A stretch of 64,000 nt of DNA from Pyrus communis (taxonomy: Eukaryota; Streptophyta; Magnoliopsida; Rosales; Rosaceae): positions 15,363,100-15,427,099 of the forward strand of contig NC_084816.1 in assembly GCF_963583255.1 (NCBI RefSeq), written 5' to 3'. Positions 22,721 to 63,140 of the stretch are shown here, piece by piece. Both the position numbers and the translations under genes were made by a program. The notes under the pieces were generated by a model. It was not told the DNA's origin, ran no database searches, and saw only the letters and a list, made by a program, of their open reading frames with translations. Position 1 is the first letter of the stretch, and each line of letters opens with the position of its first letter.

Positions 22721-23202
22721 CCGTTACTAAATCATAAACATTGAACTTATCAGGCGCTGAGTAAGTTCATATGAAGGAACTTATGGGCAACATCTATCCT
22801 TTAATTCTTCAATCAGTTAAACTTCACCAAGTGTTTTGTGTATTACTATAGAAACGATGGGCAATTCAATTAACGAAATGCAAAGGCTCTGTAAAGTTCT
22901 ACAGTTCAGCGAACAGACAAACGCAATCACATGCAATAATGATAAGTTGAACTCACATTTAAACAAAGAAAATCTGTTACCACTTAATTTTTATGCAAAA
23001 CAAACCCATAGCATAAGTAACAAAACATAATCGAACAAACTTTTAGTTGCAGTATCTGTAGAGATTGGCGGTTAAACATAAGATATAAGTTTGACAAATG
23101 CAATATATTAATCGCATTTACCTACAAAAACATCAGCTTCCATAAATAAAATAGTGAATATAAAAACAATAGAAGAGAAGTGTATCTTTAAGTGTAATTT
23201 AT
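22721..23202. other. Spacer of duplicated unit A
   Basis: AT-rich sequence similar to the corresponding spacers of copies B (31260-31600) and C (34300-34570). It probably includes the 3' flank of the F-box pseudogene. No gene was seen. Confidence 0.45.
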
Positions 23203-24045
23203 TTACCTTTCCACTTCTCATTTTGCAACATCATAAAGTGAAACAAAGGATGGACTGTAAGCAACTGCATGCAAAAATTCCTGGGTGTGATCAGTAACTG
23301 TAGTTCAGCTGAAAGTTTTTGCTTCTTGATTGAAACAACCAACAAGCCGGCTGCCACTGCCGTTGTTTTGTTCTTCCACGTATGCTATTAGGATTTCTCC
23401 ATTACTCAAAAACATAATTGGCATGTACCCGAAACATCTTGGGGACAAGTTATCAATGACAAGAATTTTAGTCCAATTCCTTCATAACCCACAACTCTAA
23501 TTTGGTAGACGGTTTATCATGCACACATAGAAGGAGACAACCTTCTAACTTTCCCAATTGTAAATACTTTGAATACCACTTCTGCATTTCTTCCAACAGC
23601 CCAGGTGAGAGTGTAGGCACGGGTAGCAATCGAAATTGTTCTCTTTCAAAATTGAAAGAATATATAGAAAACTCTGACAAGTCATATGGGGCCCAACGTT
23701 GAGCTCCGTGCAGAAAACCTTCAAACGGTAACTGAATTGCTTCATCTCTATATCTCTTAAGTATAGTTTGCGGCACACTTCCAATGCTTCTCCAAACTCC
23801 TGTGCCAAGGGTGTATATCTCAGCCTCATTCTCGCTATCCAATCATTATCAAGGTGCCATTCCTTCATCAAGATCCCAATGGGTGATCTCAAAAGATGGA
23901 GACGAGCAAATTGGGGGTCAGAAATTATAGAAAGCCACTCTTTGCAAACGCATTTGCAGTTCAAGACGGTCTTGACGCAGACTATCCTTGAGAGAATGTC
24001 CACCACCAAACCCTGCGGAAGATGTTGAAATTTGCTGCTCATCAC
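23203..24045 (-). pseudogene. F-box/FBA gene copy A, broken by deletions
   Basis: This is the minus-strand relative of the intact gene at 34572-35822. The F-box is preserved: FQHLPQGLVVDILSRIVC followed by NCKCVCKEWLSIISDPQFAR. After ILMKEW the sequence jumps over about 120 codons present in copy C and resumes out of frame at the AEIYTLGTGVWRSIGS segment. A second deletion of 17 bp after WVMKE shifts the frame again and causes a stop. The FBA half therefore cannot be translated in frame with the F-box. Confidence 0.85.
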
Positions 24046-24650
24046 TGCTCAGTTTGTATTTTGTTTCCTTGGATTCTGACTAGGTTTTCCTTGATTTCCT
24101 CTCAGCACTGCGCCTTCCAAGTTCCAGAGAGAGAAGAAATAAACAGATCAAAGATTCAAAACCGAAGGTACACAATAAGAATACCCGATGATCGGTTTCT
24201 TAGACTTTTGATTTAGGGTTTATATCTCAAATCACACTTCATCTCCTATATCCTATTCAAACTTTCAAGCAAATTCGCAACTGAAATTCCAAACAAATTT
24301 TGAATAAAAATTCTTATAACGTCTAAACTATGAAGGTTTGGCATATAATCGTTCGATAAATAAACAACAAAAAAACATAGAAAAGCAAAGGAATTTTATG
24401 CATCAGAAAGACGATAGGTAGGGATTGATCACCAGCGATTTCGAAATGGCTTCGATCTTGGGTCTGGTAGCTTTGTGCTTCTCGAGAGAGATAGAGACAG
24501 TGAGGAGAGAGAAAGGACGTACAGAAATACGCAGGTACCGTGGTGGTGAGTCGGGGAAGCAGCTGAGGTTTTGACTCAGGGAATGGAGGAGGAGGGTCTT
24601 CGGTTAGTCTTCAGCGATCCCGGCCTTGAACGACTTCTAGAACTATTTAT
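24046..24650 (-). promoter_or_regulatory. Leader and promoter-side DNA of F-box copy A
   Basis: This segment matches the regions upstream of copies C (38130-38470) and D (62878-63140): a CAACGTCTAAACT-like block (ATAACGTCTAAACT here), then ACCAGCGATTTCGA, then AGAGACAGTGAGGAGAGAG. In the paralogue a splice donor (CTG/GTGAGC) lies in the GCGATTTCG block, so this was probably a 5' UTR exon plus intron. In copy A the donor reads GGTGAT, a weaker form. Confidence 0.55.
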
Positions 24651-31231: not shown

Positions 31232-31610
31232 TTTGTTTTGTTGACAAAGTTCTAATAAGGAACATACTTTAATTCTTGAATCAGACTTCAACAAGTGTTT
31301 TGAGTATTACAATAGCAACGAGGGGCAATTCAATTACCGAAACTCAAAGCCAAAGGCTCGGTAATGTTCTGCAGTTCAGCGAACAAACAAACACACGTAA
31401 ATCTGTTACCACTTGTTTTTTATGTAAAAGAAACCCAGCATTTATGTAACAAAACATAATCGAACAAACGTTCACATGTGGAGATTGACAGTTAAGATAT
31501 GATATTATTTTGACAAATGCAATAAATTAAAGGCAATTGACTACAAGAAAAGAAAAATCAGCTTACATAAATAAAAAGTGGTTATAAAAACAACAGGAGA
31601 GAAGTGTAAT

Positions 31611-32586
31611 TTAAGTACCTTTCCACTTCTTCTCCTTTTGCAACATCGTAGAGTGAAACAAAGGATGGACTGTAAGCAATTGCATGAAAAATTCTTGGGT
31701 GTGATCAGTAACTGTAGTTCGCCTGAAAGTTTTTGCTCCTTGATTGTAACAACCAACAAGCCGGCTGCCACTACGGTTGTTTTGTTCTTCCACGTATGCT
31801 ATTAGGATTTCTCCATTACTCAAAAACATCATTGGCATGTACCCGAAACATAGTGGGGACAAGTTTTCGATGACAAGAATTTTAGTCCAGGACTGTTGAA
31901 CCCCATAATCCTTCATAACCCAGAACTCTAATTTCGTTGACAGTTTATCATGCACACATAGAAGGAGACAACCTCCTAACTGTCCCAACTGTAAATAATT
32001 TGAATACCGCTCATGCATTGCTTCCACGATCCCAGGTGAGAGTGTAGGTGTGGGTAGCGATTGAAATTGTTCTCTTTCAAAATTGAAAGAATATATAGAA
32101 AACTCTGACAAGTCATATGGAGCCCAATGTTGAGCTCCGTGCAGAAAAGCGTCAAACGGTAACTGAATTGCTTCGTCTCTGTTTCTCTTAAGTATAGTTT
32201 GAGGAACACTTCCAATGCTTCTCCAAACTCATGTGCCAAGGGTGTATATCTCAGCCTCACGCTCACCATAGAATTCGTTGTTAGATGAGGTCGTTTGCAA
32301 CACCTTGTACTCATCGGTTCCAATGCTATAACCAAGTGCAATAAAACCGCAGCGACGCCTACCGTTACTATTAGGTGGAATTGTGATGCACTCACCCAAC
32401 ATATGGTTGCACACATACAGGCCTTGAGAGAATATCCACCACCAAAACCTTCGGAAGATATTGGAATTTGCAAGGATCATTGGATTTCCATTCTTCTTTC
32501 TCTTTGTTTTTGCTGCTCGTCACTTCTTTGTTTGGATCTCGTTTCTTTAGATTCTTAGGGTTTCCTTGATTTCCTCTCGGCGGCAT
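31611..32586 (-). pseudogene. F-box/FBA gene copy B, deleted and with a nonsense codon
   Basis: It starts MPPRGNQGNPKN (32586) and keeps the first half of the F-box (CKFQYLPKVLVVDILSR). A deletion then removes the rest of the F-box and the N-terminal part of the FBA domain and joins to GLYVCNHMLGECITIPPNSN. The frame then stops where copy C has GTGVW (GGA changed to TGA). Downstream FBA sequence from LSEFSIYSFNFEREQF to the C-terminus is still open. It cannot encode a complete protein. Confidence 0.85.
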
Positions 32587-34160: not shown

Positions 34161-34571
34161 TAAACGAGGTGCAACTTTCCTTGTACCACTAAATCAGAGA
34201 CGTTGAACTTACTACCGTTGCTTTAAAAAAAAATAAAAAAAATAAAAAAGAAAAAGAAAAAGAGATATTGAACTTGTTGGGTGTTGAGTCAGTTAGCATT
34301 TGTTTTGTCGACGAAGTTCTAATAATGAACAACAAACTTCAATTCTTGAATCAGTTAAACTTCAACAAGCGTTTCAAGTATTACAATAGCAACAAGGGGC
34401 AATTCAATTACCGAAACTCAAAAATGTTCTGCAGTTCAGCGAACACAAACACGCATACATGCAGTACTGATGAGCTGAACTCATATTTAAACAAAGAAAT
34501 CTGTTACCACTTGTTTTTTATGTAAAAGAAACCCATCACTTATGTAACAAAACATAGAAGAGAAGTGTATC
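34161..34571. other. Spacer and 3' flank of F-box copy C
   Basis: AT-rich sequence shared with units A and B, with an A-rich run at 34224-34262. Likely includes the F-box 3' UTR. Confidence 0.45.
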
Positions 34572-35822
34572 TTAAGTGTAATTTAAGTACCTTTTGACTT
34601 CTTCTCCTTTTGCAACATCATTGAGTGAAACAAAGGATGGACTGTAAGCAATTGCATGAAAAAATTCTTGGGTGAGATCAGTAACTGTAGTTCGCCTGAA
34701 AGTTTTTGCTTCTTGATTGTAACAACCAACAAGCCGGCTGCCGCTACAGTTGTTTTGCTTTTCCACGTATGCTATTAGGATTTCTCCATTACTCAAAAAC
34801 ATAATTGGCATGTACCCAAAACATCTTGGGGACAAGTTATCAATGACAAGAATTTTAGTCCAAGACTGTTGGACCCCATATTCCTTCATAACCCAGAACT
34901 CTAATTTGGTAGACGGTTTATCATGCACACATAGAAGGAGACAACCTCCTAACTGTCCCAACTGTAAATAATCTGAATACCGCTCATGCATTGCTTCCAC
35001 GATCCCAGGTGAGAGTGTAGGTGTGGGTAGCGATTGAAATTGTTCTCTTTCAAAATTGAAAGAATATATAGAAAACTCTGACAAGTCATATGGAGCCCAA
35101 TGTTGAGCTCCGTGCAGAAAAGCGTCAAACGGTAACTGAATTGCTTCGTCTGTAGATCTATCAAGTATAGTTTGAGGAACACTTCCAAGGCTTCTCCAAA
35201 CTCCTGTGCCAATGGTGTATATCTCAGCCTCACGCTCACCATAGAATTCGTTATTAGATGAGGTTGTTTGCAACACCTTGTATTCATTGGTCCCAATGTT
35301 ATAACCAAGTGCAACAAAACCGCAGCGACGCCTACCATTATTAATAGGTGGAATTGCGATGCACTCGCCCAACACAGGGTTGCACACATACAGACCATCA
35401 GTTTCCGGTCCATACAAACAAAGTAAACCATCACAAGAGTTTATCAACTCGAACTCGAAACTGGGCAGTCTATTTTTGGAAGTGAAAATCATTTCTTTGA
35501 CCCCAAAACCAGTACCAGCAGCACTTTCTACTATCTGGGCCAAATCAAGTTTTTTCACTGGAGAATGAGATTGCCAAACGTTCACCAATATCCCAATGGG
35601 TGATCTCGGAAGATGGAGACGAGCAAATCGAGGGTCAGAAATTATAGAAAGCCACTCTTTGCAAACGCACTTGCAGTTCAAGACGGTCTTGAAGCAGACT
35701 ATCCTTGAGAGAATGTCCACCATCAAACCCCGCGGCAGATATTGAAATTTGCTCCTCATCACTGCTCTGTTTGTATTCTGTTCCAATGGATTATTAGGGT
35801 TTCTTTGATTTGCTCTCGGCAT
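34572..35822 (-). CDS. F-box protein with FBA-type C-terminus (At3g07870-like), intact copy C
   Basis: The ORF from ATG 35822 encodes 416 residues. F-box proteins act as the substrate-binding subunit of SCF ubiquitin ligases, binding SKP1 through the F-box. Here the F-box runs from FQYLPRGLMVDILSRIVC through NCKCVCKEWLSIISDPRFAR (about residues 28-70). The C-terminal part has F-box-associated features: LINSCDGLLCLYGP, VCNPVLGE, LGYNIGTNEYKV, EAEIYTIGTGVWRSLG, FLHGAQHW, GGCLLLCVHD and FEFWVMKEYGV-type blocks. I chose ATG 35822 because copy B starts at the same place; the longer frame (to 35996) adds 58 residues made entirely of transposon sequence. A hAT element abuts the start codon directly. 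Substrate unknown. This is the only copy of four without breaks. It is not of the S-locus SFBB type. Confidence 0.85.
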   Translation of the reverse strand: MPRANQRNPNNPLEQNTNRAVMRSKFQYLPRGLMVDILSRIVCFKTVLNCKCVCKEWLSIISDPRFARLHLPRSPIGILVNVWQSHSPVKKLDLAQIVESAAGTGFGVKEMIFTSKNRLPSFEFELINSCDGLLCLYGPETDGLYVCNPVLGECIAIPPINNGRRRCGFVALGYNIGTNEYKVLQTTSSNNEFYGEREAEIYTIGTGVWRSLGSVPQTILDRSTDEAIQLPFDAFLHGAQHWAPYDLSEFSIYSFNFEREQFQSLPTPTLSPGIVEAMHERYSDYLQLGQLGGCLLLCVHDKPSTKLEFWVMKEYGVQQSWTKILVIDNLSPRCFGYMPIMFLSNGEILIAYVEKQNNCSGSRLVGCYNQEAKTFRRTTVTDLTQEFFHAIAYSPSFVSLNDVAKGEEVKRYLNYT

Positions 35823-35999
35823 TAGGGCTGGGCAAACGGGGCCTGGACCCGCGGTTCGGGGCGGGTACGGGGCGGGTCCTGTTTTTAAAATTCTAAAACG
35901 GGGCGGGGCGGGTCGGGTCCATGTCATTTGCGGGGCGGGACGGGTCCTAATTGCTGAGGAAACGGGTCCCCGACCCGAACCGTTTCCACCTTCCAAAGA

Positions 36000-37200
36000 T
36001 GCGTTGATTTAATCTGATCACTCTGTCTCTGCCTGCCAGACTCCCACACCCACAGTCGACTGACTCAACTTGACACCCCACTCCCCAAATCTCGTCTCCT
36101 CTCTCGTCTCAGACCTCGCTCGATCGTCTCAGAGTCAGACCTCACTCCGTCCAGATCCAACCCTCCGTTTCCTTCTCTCCCCTCTCGATTCTGCATGTTC
36201 CGCCTCCTTAGCTTCTGTTTGGTTTCCGAGAATCTGTTTTCCCGAGAAATTTTTTGATTTTGTTGTTTGTGTTGAGCTGTGCGTTTGGGACCTGGTTTTG
36301 TTTTGTTTGTCCTGGAATTTGTATAGCGTGATTGTTTAATTTAAATTTTCTTTTGGTTTTTTTGGAGATGATTAATTCTGTGCTTTTAAAAAATTGTAGG
36401 GCGGAAGAGATGGATCGTTACCAGAGAGTGGAGAAGCCGAGAGTGGAGACGCCTATCGATGAGAACGAGATTAGGATTACCAGTCAGGGCAGGATGCGCA
36501 AACATCACCTACGCCATGACCCTGCTTCAGGTCTCTCTCTCCCTCTCCTCTATTTTTTTTCTTCCATTTTTTGTGTTTAATTTCTGCTTTCGGATGCATA
36601 GAATTGAAAAAAAAAATTGAAAATAATGAAATTTTGTTGTGTATTATGATGAAACAAATTCAAACCCTGATGTTAATCTTGTGTGTTTACCTGCTGCTGT
36701 TGATTTTCTGCTCGTATGCGATTATATGGTAGTATATAATGCGTATGGAAGTTTGAGAATGCGTAGGGATGAATGAATAAAGATTGAATAGAGATTTCGG
36801 ATTTATGTTAGGTTTTGATAAACCTATATTACTTGATACAGCACCTTAGATTTTGCTTATCCAAGAGACTTCGGATGTAATTTAGGTTATTTTAGACCTA
36901 TATTAGTTATTACAATACCTTAGGTTTTCTTTATCTGCTTGTGCTGCATCCTTGCAGGAAAAAGGATCGGATGAAGTTGTGTTCAAGGCCATGGGAAGAG
37001 CCATCAACAAGACTGTAATGATTGTGGAGTTAATCAAGGTTATGTGTCTTGTTCTGAATCGTTATATATTGTTTGTGAGATGTTTGTTTCCGTTCTTGGA
37101 TTAGGCTGACAAGATATTCTTATTACTGTTGTTTCAGAGAAGAATTGTTGGTCTTCATCAGAACACTACAATTGGGCTAAGAAATTATAGCAGAATAGTT
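36000..37200 (+). pseudogene. Captured Alba-family gene fragment inside the hAT element
   Basis: ATG 36410 begins MDRYQRVEKPRVETPIDENE, then IRITSQGRMR, the N-terminus of plant Alba DNA/RNA-binding proteins. Exon 1 ends at 36530 before GTCTCTC. Exon 2 is 36958-37038 (EKGSDEVVFKAMGRAINKTV, then MIVELIK), between a TTGCAG acceptor and a GT donor. Exon 3 begins at 37139 (RRIVGLHQNTTIG) and then diverges. A CT-rich 5' UTR and a leader intron (acceptor TTGTAG at about 36400) lie upstream. Introns are kept, so genomic DNA was captured. A 2 bp loss near the end of exon 1 (the family's RNYITYAM reads RKHHLRH) shifts the frame, and the C-terminal half is missing. Non-functional as a protein. Confidence 0.88.
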
Positions 37201-37275
37201 GTATATGTTGTTACAGTCTGCAAGTATAAGTTGCTTGCTTTCATGTCGAAAATGAAACTCTGGTAAGCGCTCCCC

Positions 37276-37491
37276 AAGGCTCGTGAAGAGAAATACCAGT
37301 CAAGAATCAGAGTACTTGAAACACTTGCATCCGGAACCAGTGAGGAAAGTGAGGTATGAAACATTTTTCGAAAAATTAGATCAGGAGTTGACAGCTTCTC
37401 GTAAACATGTTTCAATGTGGAACCAATGTCTTATTTTCAAAGTGAAAATTTTCTGTTACAGCTTATCATGAACCATCTTCAGCAAATAAAG
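37276..37491 (+). pseudogene. Captured kinesin-14 coiled-coil fragment inside the hAT element
   Basis: Exon-like segment 37276-37353 translates KAREEKYQSRIRVLETLASG, then TSEESE, and ends at a GT donor. After an intron of 108 bp ending in TTACAG, 37462-37491 reads LIMNHLQQIK before another GT. This matches my memory of the region between the CH domain and the motor in plant kinesin-14 proteins, where EEKYQSRIRVLE... is followed by MNQLQQIK. Only about 36 codons are present, without any motor domain. It lies on the same strand as the Alba fragment and directly after it, from a different locus. Confidence 0.75.
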
Positions 37492-38121
37492 GTATATTTC
37501 GCAGACAATGAAAAAACATATTGCTGGTGTTTAGCAGTCAAAGAATACGTATAATTTTACTTGTAAACTGCGGTTGTTCAAGTTTAATAAGGTCTATGGT
37601 TCAGATGTAACTCAATGCAAAATACTTAGTTCTTGATTTAGTTGAAGTTTAGCCAGTGCTCCCGGGGAATAAGTTTAACCTACTCATTTAATAGATTCTT
37701 TACTTCATAACACGATTATGTATATCAGTGTAGGAAGTTGTTTATGGCTCTAATTGATTATATGATTATGGACTACTGCGATATAATTGCATAAGCTTTT
37801 TGATTGATTATTTGTACAATCTGTGAAGCTGTACAATTTTTTTTTTTTCTTTCAAACATAATTGCATAAGCTTTTTGATTGATTATTTGCAATCTGTGAA
37901 TCTGTACAATTTTTTTTTTCTTTCAAACAACCAAAAAAAAAAAAAAAAAAAAAGGGACCCGTGGACCCGGCCCGAACCGGCCCGTTTCAACCGGGCCGGG
38001 TAATGTCCGGTTCTTATATTAAAAAATGTAATCCCCGGCCCGGCCCGCCCCGTTCCCTTTGAACCTAGGTCCGGTCCGGTCCCTTCAAAATTGGGCCCGG
38101 CCCGGCCCGTGCCCAGCCCTA

Positions 38122-38470
38122 CTCGGCATTGTGTCTTTCGAGTTCCAGGTATCGAATCACACTATCTAGTCCAAAATTTCAAGCAAATTCGGATCTGAAA
38201 TTCCCAACAAACTTTGAATTCAAATTCTAACAACGTCTAAACTGTGGAATTTTGAATATAATCGTTCCAGAAATAAACAATTCAACGAGAAAAGCGTAGT
38301 AATTTAACGAATCGAAAAGACGAGCTCACCAGCGATTTCGATATGGTTTTGATATTGGGTCTGGTAACTTGATGCTTCTAGAGAGAAAAAGAGACAGTGA
38401 GGAGAGAGAGAAGCCCTACAGAAACACGCAGGTGAGTCAGGGAAGCGGCTGAGGTTTTCGCTCAGGGAAG
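38122..38470 (-). promoter_or_regulatory. Displaced leader and promoter-side DNA of F-box copy C
   Basis: It continues the F-box upstream sequence after the second copy of the target duplication. A GCGATTTCG block with a splice donor CTG/GTGAGC (exon end at 38330) and an AGAGACAGTGAGGAGAGAG tract match copies A and D, so it probably holds a 5' UTR exon and the start of a leader intron. The hAT element now separates this from the coding region by 2.3 kb. Confidence 0.6.
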
Positions 38471-38929
38471 GGCGGAGGGTCGAGTTCTAGTTAAGCTATC
38501 ACGCACTTCAGTGATTCTGAAACTCAAACCCTTCCCTATTTTTGGACGAGGAAATAACTTGAAATTTGGATAAAAATCAGAATTTATAAATTATATTTAC
38601 CAATTCTTTTGTTTGCATTCATAAATATAGAAATTTAAAATTTCCGTCTGGAAAAAGAACTTGAAATTTGAGACCTCCAATTTTCAAGTTTAAATCTATA
38701 TAAATATGTGTCATTTCTCAATTTTTAGGAATGAAAATTTAAAAATAACAAATTCCGTATTCAAATTTCATTATTCTTTTAAATTAACCAAATAAGAAAA
38801 CTCATAAATTTAAGAAAATAAAATTCCATCGTTCAATTGTCTTAACCTCGCACACTAGCAATGGGAATGGTGAAATTATTGGGCTTTTCATCATTGCCTC
38901 TTGAATTAGATATCATTTTATAGAAGAGA
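38471..38929. other. AT-rich intergenic DNA
   Basis: Repeated AAATTT/GAAATTT motifs; no gene recognised. Confidence 0.35.
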
Positions 38930-41574: not shown

Positions 41575-44217
41575 TGTTTATTAGACGATATAGGGTGACT
41601 AATGCTGCATATGGATATTAGACGATATGAGGTGATTAATGCTGCCAGATTTTATGTTCCCTTCTTCCATGGGATTCTCTATTAAGTCTAATCCCTTAAT
41701 TTGACAAAGATTGACATCTAGATGACTTGTTGATAGTTGTGTGCTAGCTACTTCATGCACTCCTTTAATTTAAGGAGTGACAACTTTAGGGTTTACTGGG
41801 TTAGTAGGATTTGCCAAGGTAGGGTTGCTTCTAACCTTCTACCTCATTATATATCCCCCCTTGTACATTCAATCAATATATTAAAAATACATTCAAACAA
41901 ATGTTATCATCATATTACTAACAAGATGCTTGTGTCTAGGAATGTAAGATTTGAGGAAACAGACACCTATTTCTCCAAGGAGGCTACTCACTCCCAAGAA
42001 GGGGAGCTAATGTGTGATTTATTTCCCTTGCTTGCGTGCATTGATCACTCAGTGCACTTGGATCCATAAGCCACTAGCAATCATGAATAAGCAGAGATTG
42101 TGAGTGAAACTACTGATGTGTCTTCTCAACCAAGAAACCTGGAGGATAGTACTGAGTATGCTCAAGATGAAAGTCACAAAGAGGCTCCCATTTTACCTCC
42201 TACAAGGCATAATCATGTGCGTGCTCGACAACCTCTAACAAGGCTTCGAGATTATGTCACCTTCGCTTCCAAGCACCCCATCACTGAGGTGCTGAGTTAT
42301 AGTCGTGTTCACCCCAATCATGCCATATTCCTGGCTGAAATCGCTCATCACATTGAACCACGAACCTTTCAAGAGGTTCAACTAATTCCTGAGTGGAGAA
42401 ATGTGATGAAGGATGAACTTCATGCCTTGGAAAACAATCAAACATGGAGCATTGTGAAGTTGCCCCCAGGAAAGAAGGCTGTTGGGAGTAGATGGATCTC
42501 TAAAACAAAGTTCAAGGTTGATGGATCAATTGAACGTCACAAGGCTAAATTTGTTGCACGTGGTTTCACTCAAATTTTTGGGGTACACTACAAGGAGACT
42601 TTTGCTCCAGTAGTCAAAATGAACTTTATTAGGGTTCTTCTTTCAATGGTTGTGAATTGTGGCTAGCCATTGTATCAAATGGATGTAAAAAATGTGTTCC
42701 TTCATGGGGATTTACAAGAGGAAGTATTTATGCAACTTCCACCAGGTTCTTCTCAAGGTAAAAATGATATGGTGTGTCGATTGCACAAAGCAATCTATGG
42801 TTTGAATCAATCTCCACGTGCATGGTATGCCAAGTTGAGTTTAGTGTTGGAAGCTGCTAGTTTTGTTCGAAGTAATGTGGATTCATCCTTGTTCACTGGT
42901 AAAGGATCAGCTAGTATATTAGTGGTTATCATCTATGTGGACGCTCTCATCATCACAGGTGAAAATGAAGTTGAAATTGAAGCTCTCAAGAAATCTCTCA
43001 ATCACATATTTTCCATAAAGGACCTGGGGAGACTAAAATACTTCCTTGGCATTGAATGGCAACATCTCAAAAGGGTTTGTTTTTAAATCAGCGCAAGTAT
43101 GTTGTGGATCTTCTCATTGAGGCCGAATTACTTGATTGCAAGCCTGCTATCAATCCCCTTAATAGTAAGCTAAAGCTTGAGATGGATGGAAAACCTCTCA
43201 CCGATGTGAGTCACTACCAAAGGTTAGTTGGAAAGCTTATATACCTTACCATAACCAGACCGGATATCACCTATGTTGTGAGCCTGGTTAGCCAATTCAT
43301 GCATGCACCATCTGTGAAACATCTTCTCATTATCAAAAGAATTCTACGCTACCTCAAAGGCTCTATTAGTAGAGGTATTCTTATGAAGAACAACCAATCC
43401 ACTCAAATCAGTGGCTACACCGGTGCAGATTGGGCCGGAAATGCAATTGATAGGAAGTCTACCACTGGCTATTGTAGGTTTGTTGGAGGAAACATCGTCA
43501 CATGGAAAAGCAAAAAACACCAGGTTATTGCACGTTCTAGTGCGAAGGCTGAATATTGTGCAATGGCATTGACAACATGTGAGTTAATTTGGCTCAAGGG
43601 GTTACTTTTAGACTTAGGATTCTCTAGTTCTACTCTAATGTCACTCATATGTGACAATCAAGTCGCCATGCATATCGCTACTAACCCCGTGTTCCATGAA
43701 AAGACCAAACATATTGAGGTGGACTGTCACTACATTAGGGCACAAGTTCAATCCCAAGTTATTCAAACCATCTATACTCGCAATCATGATCAACTGGCAA
43801 ATGTATTCACAAAAGCACTTCCCTCTGTTCCTTTTCAGCGTCTCCTTGACAAGCTTAGCTCGATCAATCTCCTCGATCCAGCTTGAGCGGGAGTAATAGA
43901 CGATGTAGGGTGACTGATGCTGCATATGGATATTAGACGATATGAGGTGACTGATGCTGCCAGATTTTATGTTCACTCTTTCCATGGGATTCTCTATTAA
44001 GTCTAATCCCTTAATTTGAGGAAGATTGACATCTAGATGACTTGTTGATAATTGTGTGCTAGCTACTTCTTGCACTCCCTTAATTTAAGGAGTGACAACT
44101 TTAGAGTTTACCGAGTTAGTAAGATTTGCCAAGGTAGGGGTGCTTGTAACCTTCTACCTCATTCTATATCCCCCCCCCTTGTACATTCCATCAATCTATG
44201 AAAAATACATTCAAACA
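41575..44217 (+). mobile_element. Internally deleted Ty1-copia retrotransposon
   Basis: The 5' LTR (about 41575-41899) and 3' LTR (about 43893-44217) share ATTAGACGATATGAGGTGA, GACATCTAGATGACTTGTTG, TTTAATTTAAGGAGTGACAA and a TTCAAACA end. The polypurine tract TTGAGCGGGAG precedes the 3' LTR. Between the 5' LTR and about 41930 there is no recognisable primer-binding site, gag or protease. The internal part begins near the end of integrase (MLVSRNVRFEETDTYFSKE). No matching 5 bp target duplication was found. Confidence 0.8.
41920..43886 (+). pseudogene. Copia reverse transcriptase-RNase H, broken
   Basis: Segments in order: integrase tail (RNVRFEETDTYF); RVT_2 reverse transcriptase from EWRNVMKDELHALENNQTWS through VGSRWISKTKFKVDG; a stop where the family has W (42664, TAG); YQMDVKNVFLHGDLQEEVFM; IYVDALIITG; then a 1 bp loss near 43055 that shifts the frame before MATSQKGLFLNQRKYVVDLL; RNase H with GADWAG, RKSTTGYC, SSAKAEYCA and ADVFTKAL-type NVFTKALPS. 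The catalytic YVDD box reads YVDA. The stop, frameshift and active-site change make it inactive. Confidence 0.9.
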
Positions 44218-44546
44218 AACTTAAAATTTCCACACTGTTAGTTGTTGTATGTCAAATAACTCTGATTATCTGCCATGCGAAGCCACCAAAAGCTTGTTGG
44301 CTTTAACAATGGTGACCAAATACTTACTTTTGGATCTGAAATTTCTGTGCAAAACTATTTCTAAAATTGGATAAATTATGAAAGAGGAAATAAAAAAGAC
44401 AGGAGAAATCCCAAATCAAGTTTGCGGGGGGAAGATGGAGTGGGCGGTTGGAACTAAGCCATCACTTGAATTAAAGGCGCACTTTTTTTTTTCAAGTTTT
44501 ATTTTTGGATCTGAATTTTAGCGCCTTTAGCTCATCTTGTTTTGTC

Positions 44547-44624: not shown

Positions 44625-45271
44625 TAGAATTTTATTCAAACAACCGAAGAAGGGACTGGAATAGAAAAGTGTCAATACAAATTTCCGCCGTCTTCAATCA
44701 TGATGATAATGCACCTGTAAAACAATCAACACCTTTGATCAAAGATCTAAGCCTCACACACCCGCGAGGTGGGGGGGTTAGGTCAAAGGATCTCTGATGC
44801 CTAAGTTAGTTTATCTGAGAGAGTAAAGTGTTTAAGGCTTTTTAGGGTTGCAAAAACCCTCCAAAATTGGTAGAATATGGGGTATTTATGCGGCTAGGGG
44901 CAGCCATATAGTGTTTAATGGAGAGATATTCTCTAAATATTCCCAAGATATTAAATAGGAAATAATATCTTGAGATAATGCTATAATTATCCCTAATTTA
45001 TTTAAATTAGGATTACTTACTTGATTGGAGTTATTCTTCAAGTATGAATGTATTAAAGATAGGATTTGGGTAATTAATCCTTATCTTTAATTCCTTGCCC
45101 AGGGCAGGTGAGCTGTGGGTAGTTGTGTTCAGCTGCTAAGTCCTTCAAGGATGTGAGCTGCACATGGGAGCATCTGAGAAGCCTGCCCATTTATTTAGGG
45201 CAATCTTGTCATTCTTGAATAAAAGTCCACGTGTCGCCTCTAGAATTTTTGGGATTATTTTAGGCTCCACA
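44625..45271 (-). repeat. 3' LTR of the gypsy element
   Basis: On the minus strand it starts TGTGGAGCCTAAAATAATCC at 45271, preceded by the polypurine GGGGGTATTT. It includes CAGCTCACCTGCCC and AATATTATTTCC-like blocks, and CGGCGGAAATTTG near the far end. The far end is approximate. Confidence 0.8.
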
Positions 45272-45837
45272 AATACCCCCACACCTATTGTGCCGCACGC
45301 AGGAAAATGATTGTAGGTGTAGGAATCCCAAGCTGCTCAGGCTTGTAGAATTGTTCTCAATTTGAACTTGATCTTCTTTCTTGATTTAGAGATAGACTTC
45401 TTTTAAGAAAAGGAAAATAATTGCCCCCAATACCTATTTAATTCTGCCTTAAGCAGGGAATTAAATAAATTTAGAGAACGATCATTATTTCAACAAGGAA
45501 GAGAAGCCAGAGGATATTTTTTTTCTTCCCCCTCCCCTAGTGTTCTTCTTTTCTTGCCTTTGCGAAGAGTTGTTTCTCGTTGTTCTTCTTTTTTTCCACG
45601 CCGCACCAAGGTAAAGAAAATTTGAATTTTTTAAGAGCCTTGGGGCTTGAAAAATTGGCTTCGTGGGTGCCAAGGATGTATGAATGGTGTGGCAGGGAGG
45701 CCACAGGCTGCATGTGGCGTGGCAAGGGTGTTGGCCGGTGTGGGGAAACCAGCTCGAGCCGGGTCTCCATGGCTACTGGCCTGGAGCCTGGGCAGGCCTG
45801 GGTTGCTTCTTGGGCATATATATAAATATACATATAT

Positions 45838-56019: not shown

Positions 56020-56670
56020 AGAGGCTTCTTCGAGTATTTTGAATCAGCTATCAATGAAAACACTAATTTGTCGATGCAAATTTCCGCCGTCTTCAGTCTT
56101 GATGAAAATGCACCTGCAAAACAATCAACACCTTTGATCAAAGCCCTAAACCTCACGCGCCCACGAGGTGGGGGGTGTTAGGTCAAAGGATCTCCAATGC
56201 CTAAGTTAGTTTATCTGAGAGAGTAAAGTGTTTAAGGCTTTTTAGGGTTGTAAAAGCTCTCCAAAATTGGTAGAATATGGGGTATTTATAGGGATAGAGC
56301 CGGCCATATAGTGTTTAATGGAGAGATATTCTCTAAATATTTCCAAGATATTAAATAGGAAATAATATCTTGAGATAATAGTGTAATTATCCCTAATTTA
56401 TTTAAATTAGGATTACTTACTTGATTGGAGTTATTCTTCAAGTAGGAATGTATTAAAGATAGGATTTGGGTAATTAATCTTTATCTTTAATTCCCTGCCA
56501 AGGGCAGGTGAGCTGTGAGCAGTTGTGTTCAGCTGCTAAGTCCTTTAGGGATGTGAGCTGCGGGTGGGAGCATCTGAGAAGCCTACCCATTTATTGAGGG
56601 CAATCTTGTCCTTCTTGAATAAAAGTTCACGTGTCGCCTCTAGAATTTTTGGATTATTTTAGGCTCCACA
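56020..56670 (-). repeat. 5' LTR of the gypsy element
   Basis: A direct copy of the 44625-45271 LTR, starting TGTGGAGCCTAAAATAATCC at 56670 on the minus strand. CCTACTTGAAGAATAACTCC and GAATATCTCTCCATTAAACA occur in both apart from single differences. Adjacent internal DNA lies to its left (lower coordinates). Confidence 0.85.
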
Positions 56671-58730
56671 AAAAGCAAAAAAAGGAACATGAGCATACGC
56701 AGAAAGAAGGGGACAGAAAAATACTTTCCCGCAGCAACAAAGCTGAGCATACAATTGGAAGGTAGTAATGTGTACACCCGAGCCGTAGCTCTAAACACCT
56801 TCCTATAAATCCTCAAAATAAGGGTGGAGACATGGTTACAGATCTTGAGATTTGTGAGAACAATGGAGGGTGGAAGTGTATTAGAAAATGGATGAATTAA
56901 AGTCAAGGAGGTGGAAAAACTGGAGGGAGAAGAAGAAAAATGAAGGTTGGAATTGGGACATTTCGATTGAGCCAATGAATGGTTAGATAGGAGGCAATAG
57001 GGGATCAATTACATAGAAAAATGGGTCAAAAAACATGGAGAAAACCAGGCGTACAGAGGTGGGAAGAGGCAAAAAAAGATGAAAAAGGGATGCTACCGAC
57101 TATGGCCATTGTTAGGGCCGGCTACTGAGCAAGCCAACGAAATTGGGAGCACTCACACACCAGTGAGAAAGCCTCTCACTCAGAGAAGGTCTCTCACGCA
57201 AAGAAAAAAAAAAATCCCTGTTTGGAAGGTTTTGGGTCGCAAGAAATCTCTAATGGTTACTTTATTTTTCTCATGTCTTGCTTCCAAACCATACGGCCAA
57301 TCATGTCTTGTTTCCCTTGCTCAAAACATACAATATTTCAAATTAATAAAGCATCTACAAATTTCTCCATGGCCAAATAGCATAGCCCAGTGGCAGAGAA
57401 TAAAGTTTGCTAACCTTAAAAACATGGTGGGCTTGGCCCTCGAAGTGTACAAAATTTTATCATTGCCACCTTGGCTAAATTAAGATGAAAACTTAACGCA
57501 AAATCGAGCATAATTACGTTTAGAATTTATACAGCCGACTCTACTTAATGGAATAAAGTTTTATTGTTATTGTAAATAACTAGGGTACAATGAGTTATTA
57601 GGAAATATCTTCATAATAAAAATTTCCTAAAAGTAAATGCTAAGCCTACAGATTCTATGGTTTGGAAAGGTATATCCTAAAATAAAAAGTCGTATTCAAG
57701 AGGAAGTCGCAGGAGCAGTAACCACAGTTTAACATCATTAATGGAATGCACAATTTTCCTAGAGAATTAAGTCTATTGTTGAAGACATCATTCACCTCAA
57801 GAGTAATTTTTTGCAAGTGTCATTGAATTCAAACATTTTCTGGGAAGACGGCAGATCTAATGGCTGATCTTGGACATCAATATACTCATAACTGTATACT
57901 ACACCAAGAAATGTAGCAGAGCTAATAACCATGAAGGTGATGGCTTGATTGCAAAAAGAATGTGGGGAAAGTGACAGAGCTTTTAAGAGTCTCTGCTGGG
58001 AGTTTGTAGAGCTAATAACTATGAAGGTGATGGCTTGCTTGCAAAAGGAATGTGGGAAAAGTGACAGAGCTTTTAAGGGTTTTACTGGGAGTTTTTAGAT
58101 GAGTTGAGTGTCATTTTCCACTGATTCTACTGCCCTTGTATAGAGTCTTTATCCATGTAGATTACCCCTTCTTTTTCTAGCTTGAGCCATTTCTTTGTCA
58201 AGTGGTTGATGTGACTATATTCAGCAAGGGTGAGTTCACACCTGATCCTTCCTTATTTATGAGTTTTTACCATCAAAAAACACTTTCCTCCTGCAAAACC
58301 TTCTCTGCAAAATTCTCCCTAGCCTGATCATCGTAGGCTTTGCTGCCCATGGCTGCCACGTCATAATATTTAAAAACATTAGGCCCACAGCTTTCCAAAA
58401 TCAAATACCAAATAAGGGGATGTCTGGGCCTAATCAAATCAAGGCCGAATAATTATCAGTCCAAATAGGGTTAGTTATAGTTCAATTCAGGGTTTTGGTT
58501 GTTTTAAATTAGGCCTAAATGTCATAATAGTCTATGTGTTAGCTAATTAAGGACATTTTATTTAATCTCTTTTTTAAAATTCATATGAAAAATAATTACC
58601 TTTTCTCTTTACAAAAAAATGCATATCAACGATTACACGTATAAGAAATAAAACTTTCAATCTAAAAAATGATTAAGGTTGTGACATAGAAAAGAGAGGG
58701 GGTAATGTTAGGGAGGAAGTAGAGTTGGGT
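56671..58730. other. Intergenic DNA with one tandem duplication
   Basis: No recognisable gene. A 90 bp unit is duplicated in tandem at 57921-58100 (GCTAATAACCATGAAGGTGA and GCTAATAACTATGAAGGTGA starts). An open frame at 57079-57483 has no family features. Confidence 0.45.
57921..58100. repeat. 90 bp tandem duplication
   Basis: GCTAATAAC(C/T)ATGAAGGTGA occurs at 57921 and 58011; AAGTGACAGAGCTTTTAAG follows in both copies. Confidence 0.9.
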
Positions 58731-61600: not shown

Positions 61601-61789
61601 AAGAAAACATATTGTTCAGCCGTAAAGAGACAGCAGCAAAACAATTGGATGGATTCAAAAGAAAAAAATGACAGATGTACTAAATGTAAGTTGACAAATG
61701 CAATATATCAATAGTATTTTCCTACAAAAACATCAGCTTCCATAAATAAAAAAGGGAGTATAAAAACAATAGAAGAGAAGCATATCTTA
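61601..61789. other. Spacer of unit D
   Basis: Shared with unit A at 21710-21790 and 23090-23200, joined here by a deletion of the intervening part. Confidence 0.4.
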
Positions 61790-62877
61790 AGTGTAATTCA
61801 AGTACTTTTCAGCTTCTCCTTTTGCAACATCGTAGAGTGAAACAAAGGATGGACTGTAGGCAATTGCATGAAAAAAAATTTGGGTGCGATTAGTAACTAT
61901 AGCGCCTGAAAGTTTTTGCTTCTAGATTGCAACAACCATCAAGCCGGCTGCCGCTACGGTTGTTTTGCTCTTCCACGTATGCTATTAGGATTTCTCCATT
62001 ACTCAAAAACATAATTGGCATGTACCCGAAACATCTTGGGGACAAGTTCTCAATGACAAGAATTTGAGTCCAAGACTGTTGGACCCCATATTCCTTCATA
62101 ACCCAGAACTCTAATTTGGCAGACGGTTTACCATGCACACATAGAAGGAGACAACCTCCTAACTGTCCCAACTGTAAATAATCTGAATACCACTCATGCA
62201 TTGCTTCCACGAACCCAGGTGAGAGTGTAGGTGCGGGTAGCGATCGAAATTGTTCGCTTTCAAAATTGAAAGCATATATAGAAAACTCTGACAAGTCATA
62301 TGGAGCCCAATGTTGAGCTCCGTGCAGAAAAGCGTCAAACGGTAACTGAATTGCTTCGTCTCTGTTTCTCTTAAGTATAGTTTGAGGAACACTTCCAATG
62401 CTTCTCCAAACAGGGTGTATATCTCAGCCTCACGCTCACCATACAATTCGTTGTTAGATGAGGTTGTTTGCAAGACCTTGTATTCATTGGTCCCAATGTT
62501 ATATCCAAGTGCAATAAAACCGCATCGACGCCTACCATTATCATTAGGTGGAATTGAGATCCACTCACCCAACACAGGGTTGCACACATACATACCGTCA
62601 GTTTCCGGTCCATACAAAGAAAGTAAACCATCACAAGAGTTTATCAACTCGAACTTGAAATTGGGCAGGCTATTTTTGGCAGTGAAAATCATTTTTTCGA
62701 CCCCAAAATCATTACCAGCAGCAGTCTCTACTATCTGGGCCAAATAAAGTTTTTTCACTGACGAATAAGATCCCAATGGGTGAACTTGGAAGATGGAGAC
62801 GAGCAAATTGAGGGTCAGAAATTATAGAAAGCCACTCTTTGCAAACGCACTTGAAGTTCAAGAAGGTCTTGAAGCAG
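61790..62877 (-). pseudogene. F-box/FBA gene copy D, F-box truncated and frameshifted
   Basis: The FBA part is well conserved (LYLAQIVETAAGNDFGVEKM, LINSCDGLLSLYGPETDGMY, VCNPVLGEWISIPPNDNGRR). The first half of the F-box is missing: sequence breaks off after the FLNFKCVCKEWLSIISDP part, at 62877, into leader DNA. A deletion of about 11 bp at AEIYTL shifts the frame before FGEALEVF, and a 2 bp deletion near 61904 shifts it again at the RRTTVTD position. Non-functional. Confidence 0.88.
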
Positions 62878-63140
62878 AATTACAATTCTAACAACGTCTA
62901 AACTGTGAAATTTCGCAAATAGATGTGTTCCATAAATAAACAATGAAAAGAGAAAAGCGTAGTAATTTTATGAATCGAAAAGACGAGCTCACCGGCGATT
63001 TCGATATGGTTTTTATAGCTTTCTGGTTTTAGAGAGAGACAGAGACAGAGAGGAAAGAGAAAAGACGTACCGAAACACGAAGGTCCCGTCGTGAGTCGGG
63101 GAAACCGGCTCAGGGAAGGGAGGGTCTTGAGTGACTTCTG
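62878..63140 (-). promoter_or_regulatory. Leader and promoter-side DNA of F-box copy D
   Basis: Matches 38220-38460 of copy C: TCTAACAACGTCTAAACTGT, then GACGAGCTCACC(G/A)GCGATTTCG with the GT donor kept, then the AGAGACAG tract. It is joined directly to the truncated F-box by a deletion. Confidence 0.6.

Follow-up and report, generated by a model that had tools for sequence, protein, structure and literature searches.

Positions 35823–38121 of the 64-kb window, by which we mean the whole stretch of DNA analysed, are occupied by a transposable element of the hAT type. The element lies in the 5′ untranslated region (UTR) of an F-box gene and contains, on the plus strand, sequence homologous to the 5′ part of an Alba gene and, further to the right, sequence homologous to an internal part of a kinesin-14 gene. 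It is bounded by a perfect 12-bp terminal inverted repeat (TIR), TAGGGCTGGGCA, and a perfect 8-bp target-site duplication (TSD), CTCGGCAT; an 8-bp TSD and a short TIR, like subterminal repeats near both ends, are features of hAT elements. The left TIR is located at 35823–35834 (plus strand) and the right TIR at 38110–38121 (minus strand), where 12 of 12 bases form the exact reverse complement of the left copy. The TSD at 35815–35822 is repeated exactly at 38122–38129. The left hAT end (35823–35987, plus strand, 165 bp) and the right hAT end (37954–38121, minus strand, 168 bp), whose inner borders are approximate, both have a GC content of 0.65, and the GGGGCGGGTC-type subterminal repeats of the left end are inverted in the right end. 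The GC content falls to 0.37 in the 1,966-bp AT-rich cargo between them.

With no mismatch allowed, the 12-mer occurs in the window at the two element termini only. Allowing up to two mismatches, there are four occurrences in the window, compared with a mean of 2.88 in shuffled sequences, 36 of 100 of which reached four; the loose TIR motif alone is therefore no proof, because the shuffles yield equally many matches. An 8-bp duplication combined with 12 matching terminal bases was found at 16 places, 15 of which are low-complexity runs and the other the element itself. In 20 first-order Markov simulations, an 8-bp duplication with 8 matching terminal bases appeared in 0–2 pairs per simulated window. 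The subterminal motif GGGGCGGGTC (one mismatch or fewer) occurs nine times in the window, every time within the two ends, and none of 100 shuffles reached this count. Beyond the TIR, the two ends match in 102 of 116 gap-free columns of an alignment with many gaps, with a score of 69.5 against a shuffle maximum of 66.5 (n = 200). Because this alignment is loose past the TIR, the ends have motifs in common but no long inverted repeat. The assignment to hAT is based on the TSD length, the TIR and the end style, which probably resembles that of named hAT families, and not on a transposase. A Pfam scan of 10 of the element's open reading frames (ORFs) gave no match to a transposase domain; within these 10 ORFs, the element thus has no transposase of its own, in keeping with the definition of a Pack-TYPE element. 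No further copies of the ends or of the cargo (cargo searched at E 1e-3) were found in the 64-kb window. The TIR string tagggctgggc is present in 18 papers, none of which, judged by title, concerns a plant DNA transposon; one of them, again by its title, deals with LTR-retrotransposon-related RNAs of triticale (PMC7765848).

The F-box/FBA_1 gene that received the element has an open frame on the minus strand at 34572–35759, with its ATG at 35759, and the frame stays open upstream to 35822. This ATG is kept in a tandem paralogue at about 24 kb, and the element is located 63 nt upstream of it. The paralogue (22961–24592) aligns with 34572–35822 and also with the sequence past the element (38172–38478 against 24258–24592, 76%). 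Positions 38130–38500 (minus strand), aligned with the paralogue at 24.2–24.6 kb, represent the displaced promoter-side part of the same gene's 5′ region. When the flanks are joined, CTGGAACTCGAAAGACACAATGCCGAGAGCAAATCAAAG stands opposite CTGGAACTTGGAAGGCGCAGTGCTGAGAGGAAATCAAGG of the paralogue, which has one target copy and no element; it also has approximately 100 extra bases upstream of the aligned stretch. The insertion is real, because the tandem paralogue shows this empty site. Together with the exact 12-bp TIR and the two copies of the TSD, it bears out the first-pass annotation of the DNA, which had described hAT ends with a perfect 8-bp duplication. The element would most simply have inserted into the 5′ UTR after the duplication of the F-box cluster. 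The element is likewise missing from the paralogue at 61.7–63.1 kb, although the start region of this copy is deleted, and the one at 31.4–32.6 kb aligns up to the insertion site (79% over 35748–35820) and weakly beyond it.

The F-box promoter and the first part of the UTR are now 2.3 kb from the start codon, and the element contributes 23 ATGs on the F-box strand. A candidate F-box start codon within the TSD (ATGCCGAG) was dropped, because the 24-kb paralogue shares the next in-frame ATG (35759) but not the one in the TSD, where it has GTGCTGAG. Read on the minus strand, the left TIR gives TTTGCCCAG and then CCCTA, and this is a putative splice acceptor just upstream of the F-box UTR. The F-box/FBA cluster comprises copies at 22961–24592, 31389–32581, 34489–35822 and 61681–63084, all on the minus strand; six pairwise alignments over 650 bp are 86–94% identical, and some copies look truncated or rearranged. 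An FBA-type cluster brings an S locus to mind; SFBB sequences, however, do not seem to fit this F-box protein.

Other repeats are present to the right of the element. An ORF at 42091–42666 contains an RVT_2 (PF07727) reverse transcriptase domain and lies between direct repeats at 41579–41901 and 43894–44219 (92%). The interval 41579–44219 may therefore be an internally deleted LTR retrotransposon, presumably of the Copia type. Two further direct repeats of approximately 605 bp (44670–45273 and 56069–56672; 92.7% alike and 11.4 kb apart) surround a GC-richer part of the window and are possibly the LTRs of another retroelement.

Next to the left end, the cargo begins with a putative Alba 5′ region (35988–36409, plus strand), which appears to consist of a pyrimidine-rich UTR and a leader intron with a plausible acceptor AG at 36398–36399. 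It is followed on the same strand by coding exon 1 with the ATG (36410–36530, 121 nt), intron 1 (36531–36957, 427 nt, GT-AG), exon 2 (36958–37038, 81 nt, EKGSDEVVFKAMGRAINKTVMIVELIK), intron 2 (37039–37137, 99 nt, GT-AG) and the start of exon 3 (37138–37176, RRIVGLHQNTTIG). The third exon is cut in its middle, and the Alba homology stops there, after ...HQNTTIG. The translated exons match the Alba family in Pfam (PF01918, E 6.5e-15). For the search of relatives, the frame was read across a two-base gap in exon 1; 120 of 219 matches were listed, and the best was a Malus baccata protein (P0001) with 98% identity over 80 aa. The 41 residues encoded by exon 1 in the relatives require 123 nt, two more than are present. 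Exon 1 is therefore frameshifted and not intact; after splicing, the frame that begins at the Alba ATG meets a stop in exon 2 after 45 aa. The first-pass annotation had described two full Alba exons and part of a third. Its exon 2, partial exon 3, two coding-region introns and family identity hold, but exon 1 is not full.

The borders of the Alba introns can be read from predicted proteins that continue into them. Among the 120 relatives listed of 219, 52 predicted proteins run by pattern into V directly after LLQ, while 17 join LLQ to EKG; at the second border, six read on after ELIK, while 19 join ELIK to RR. Four proteins (P0095, P0096, P0102 and P0107) translate intron 2 right to RRIVGL and thus show both of its borders. 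In a second set of 41 further Alba relatives, 39 read on after ELIK, a count that is biased because the query itself held ELIKV.... Because predicted relatives read into the same introns, the exon-intron borders of the element agree with those of the host gene family. Before exon 2, a Malus baccata protein (P0041) has LRFSLSVCVTSFQ where the element has LRFSLSACAASLQ, with 9 of 13 intron 1 residues identical; at least there, the two introns therefore look homologous. Intron 1 also contains a diverged 72-bp tandem duplication (36790–36861 and 36864–36935, 78%), which perhaps came from the donor. One predicted protein, P0241, derives from a 626-bp ENA contig and corresponds to intron 1, exon 2 and intron 2 of the element, with TAG read as Q. 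It has a 2-base difference from the element in exon 2, and the joint between the Alba and kinesin pieces lies beyond its reach. P0241 may stem from a second copy, from an allele, or from the same sequence with an error in it. The entry is probably plant DNA to which a public protein set applied an alternative genetic code.

The kinesin-14 piece, also on the plus strand, consists of a coiled-coil exon encoding AREEKYQSRIRVLETLASGTSEESE (37279–37353, 75 nt, or 78 nt with a shared K codon), an intron (37354–37461, 108 nt, GT-AG) and a micro-exon encoding LIMNHLQQIK (37462–37491, 30 nt), which is followed by GT. All 35 of the 35 residues encoded by the two exons are identical in a Pyrus protein (P0121) and a Malus domestica protein (P0122), two of the 120 relatives listed of 127 matches. 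Both proteins contain the kinesin motor domain (PF00225) and PF00307, which we take to be the calponin-homology (CH) domain, and the database entry names give the type as KIN-14P. A Malus sylvestris protein (P0125) differs at two residues in the kinesin exons, and a M. baccata protein (P0219) lacks the whole 10-residue micro-exon. Exactly these 10 residues are skipped in 14 of the 120 listed relatives, 12 of which are from Brassicaceae by name. This skipping supports a separate 30-nt exon, with the intron border matched by the exon-skipping isoforms; therefore, the 108-nt intron sits where the host kinesin family has one. The two coiled-coil exons and the intron that the first-pass annotation had proposed are thus corroborated. 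The family names Alba and kinesin-14, which it had based on conserved motifs, agree with the Pfam match, the 98% match in Malus and the identical kinesin stretch in Pyrus and Malus. A comparison of the kinesin piece with solved structures gave 13 chains of armadillo-repeat or similar type, in none of which a single stretch passed by itself; they were rejected as spurious.

The kinesin piece had been placed directly after the Alba piece. The order and the strand are as described, but the kinesin homology is certain only from 37279 (or from 37276 with the shared K codon), whereas the Alba homology ends at 37176. The 102 bases at the joint (37177–37278, plus strand), possibly the 3′ end of a kinesin intron, and the 462 bases of the remaining cargo (37492–37953, plus strand), perhaps part of the next one, likely derive from kinesin introns. 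The latter stretch contains an A-run and, near the right end of the cargo, a 75-bp tandem duplication (37783–37858 and 37858–37929, 93% identity). None of eight hAT-end motifs tested was found in the cargo, including the joint, and self-comparison revealed no internal copy of either element end.

Based on these features, we consider it highly probable that the element is a non-autonomous Pack-hAT that contains an Alba 5′ part and an internal KIN-14P piece on the same strand, with their introns kept, and that both were copied as genomic DNA. An mRNA source is disfavoured because the introns are retained. Intact relatives of both cargo genes are represented at the protein level by full-length Malus and Pyrus Alba and KIN-14 proteins. 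Based on the best protein matches, the host genome would belong to the Malus/Pyrus group, in the apple/pear tribe. The reading of the first-pass annotation, a Pack-type hAT with genomic DNA of two unrelated genes, is upheld by the exact ends, by exon-intron borders like those of the host families and by the 10 ORFs without a transposase match.

In the mechanism we propose, two GC-rich hAT ends of approximately 165 bp enclose genomic DNA from two unrelated host genes, and the element would be mobilized in trans by a hAT transposase recognizing nothing but these ends. The cargo pieces would have been added as DNA, most likely via the repair of an excision gap inside or beside the element, and the gap repair would have switched its template to two ectopic loci, an Alba gene and the gene of a CH-domain kinesin-14. 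The present copy then entered the 5′ UTR of the F-box gene, with a stagger of 8 bp. Gap repair with template switching is our preferred route over element fusion; the evidence does not separate the two.

Under the fusion model, two adjacent Pack elements, one with Alba cargo and the other with kinesin cargo, would have become a single unit through the use of the outer ends by the transposase and the loss of the inner ends. A fusion (local-hopping) model of this kind, put forward for Pack-CACTA and other Pack-TYPE elements, has been argued with examples of Pack-PIF and Pack-Mariner, and those of CACTA and hAT were called similar (PMC8903248). In the present element, the eight motifs tested in the cargo and the self-comparison gave no relic of inner ends. 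Nothing in the cargo thus points positively to the fusion of two elements, although the loss of both inner ends would look alike, and we regard fusion as rather improbable while still giving it some weight. Prior adjacency of the two pieces, in which a single capture would have taken up a host region where an older pseudogenic rearrangement had already set Alba and kinesin fragments side by side, would be compatible with their common strand and the 102 or fewer bases between them. However, the Malus and Pyrus entries have Alba and kinesin as separate proteins, and we judge such a capture to be unlikely. An error of the assembly is scarcely credible as the cause of the layout. One assembly is the sole source of the joint structure, but the exact TIR and TSD stand at the borders and the paralogue presents a clean empty site; moreover, the separately derived ENA entry P0241 has the same order of intron 1, exon 2 and intron 2, although it stops short of the joint.

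The remaining alternative is that the chimera is expressed and functional, either as a new gene or as a source of small RNAs, by exon shuffling. If exon 3 were skipped, Alba exon 2 and the two kinesin exons would be joined in one open frame (...VELIKAREEKYQ..., frame 1), and the Alba promoter may be part of the captured piece. However, translation from the Alba ATG would be thrown out of frame in exon 1 and meet a stop in exon 2. An Alba-kinesin fusion protein starting from this ATG is excluded, because the spliced frame ends after 45 aa, and a functional chimera of either kind appears very unlikely to us. We return to the Pack-hAT with two captured gene pieces and regard the element as non-coding, a clear but fairly ordinary case of the known shuffling of genes by transposons.

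The cargo looks pseudogenic from its sequence. Since the captured Alba ATG leads to a truncated peptide of 45 residues, the element may plausibly act through RNA, as a source of small RNAs that target Alba and KIN-14P, or affect the F-box gene with its displaced promoter. A more far-reaching proposal, to which we attach a very low probability, is that the captured Alba 5′ region may act as a promoter in both directions. Rightward transcription would produce a chimeric Alba-KIN-14P RNA and, from it, small RNAs acting in trans on both genes, and leftward transcription would drive the F-box gene from a point approximately 230 bp before the start codon, a distance made up of 63 nt of UTR and the 165-bp left end. 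If this were true, one hAT insertion would link three otherwise unrelated genes as a single regulatory unit.

The general picture of gene shuffling in plant genomes is unchanged by this element. Its value lies in the combination of a structurally complete two-gene Pack-hAT and a nearby paralogous empty site, which makes the element useful as a worked example. Both donors (one Alba and one KIN-14P gene) look identifiable; therefore, their breakpoints could tell template switching from element fusion. The position in the F-box 5′ UTR offers a simple expression test.

Among the literature matches listed, judged by titles and the starts of abstracts, we found no report of a Pack-hAT in Maleae (apple/pear). 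Gene capture by hAT elements has been called a rare feature in a study of maize, which also cites the suggestion that capture occurs during the repair of excision breaks and describes gene fragments in two Ds2 and nine Ds-l4 elements (PMC3260210). Two of the maize elements, Ds2-22 and Ds-l4-354, resemble the present one in that they are hAT elements with an 8-bp TSD, a short TIR and host-gene DNA that includes an intron; however, each contains a single gene instead of two unrelated genes, and the TIR and end sequences differ (PMC3260210). A survey of Pack-hAT elements in maize and rice likewise reported captured coding DNA within hAT elements with an 8-nt TSD, and one of these lengthens an exon of a maize gene and supplies a splice donor there (PMC8903248). 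The families surveyed are from monocots, however, its two-gene series is a Pack-PIF cluster, and the word intron is absent from its main text (PMC8903248).

Closer in host, the grapevine family Hatvine-6 is a eudicot hAT family with a variable region that often matches introns and exons of genes (PMC2528002). Hatvine-6 has a common transposase coding sequence (PMC2528002), in contrast to the present element, for which the 10 ORFs scanned gave none. In animals, Pack-TIR duplicates such as Pack-hAT-N8_XT also represent the capture of genic DNA by hAT elements, for which models of repair and template switching have been put forward, with gap filling and fork switching argued as the routes (PMC8277862). 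Pack-hAT-N8_XT differs in its animal host and in carrying a 291-bp 5′ UTR piece from a single gene (PMC8277862). Gene-bearing hAT elements with introns have thus already been published for maize (PMC3260210) and grapevine (PMC2528002), and the present element joins them with pieces of two unrelated genes between one pair of ends.
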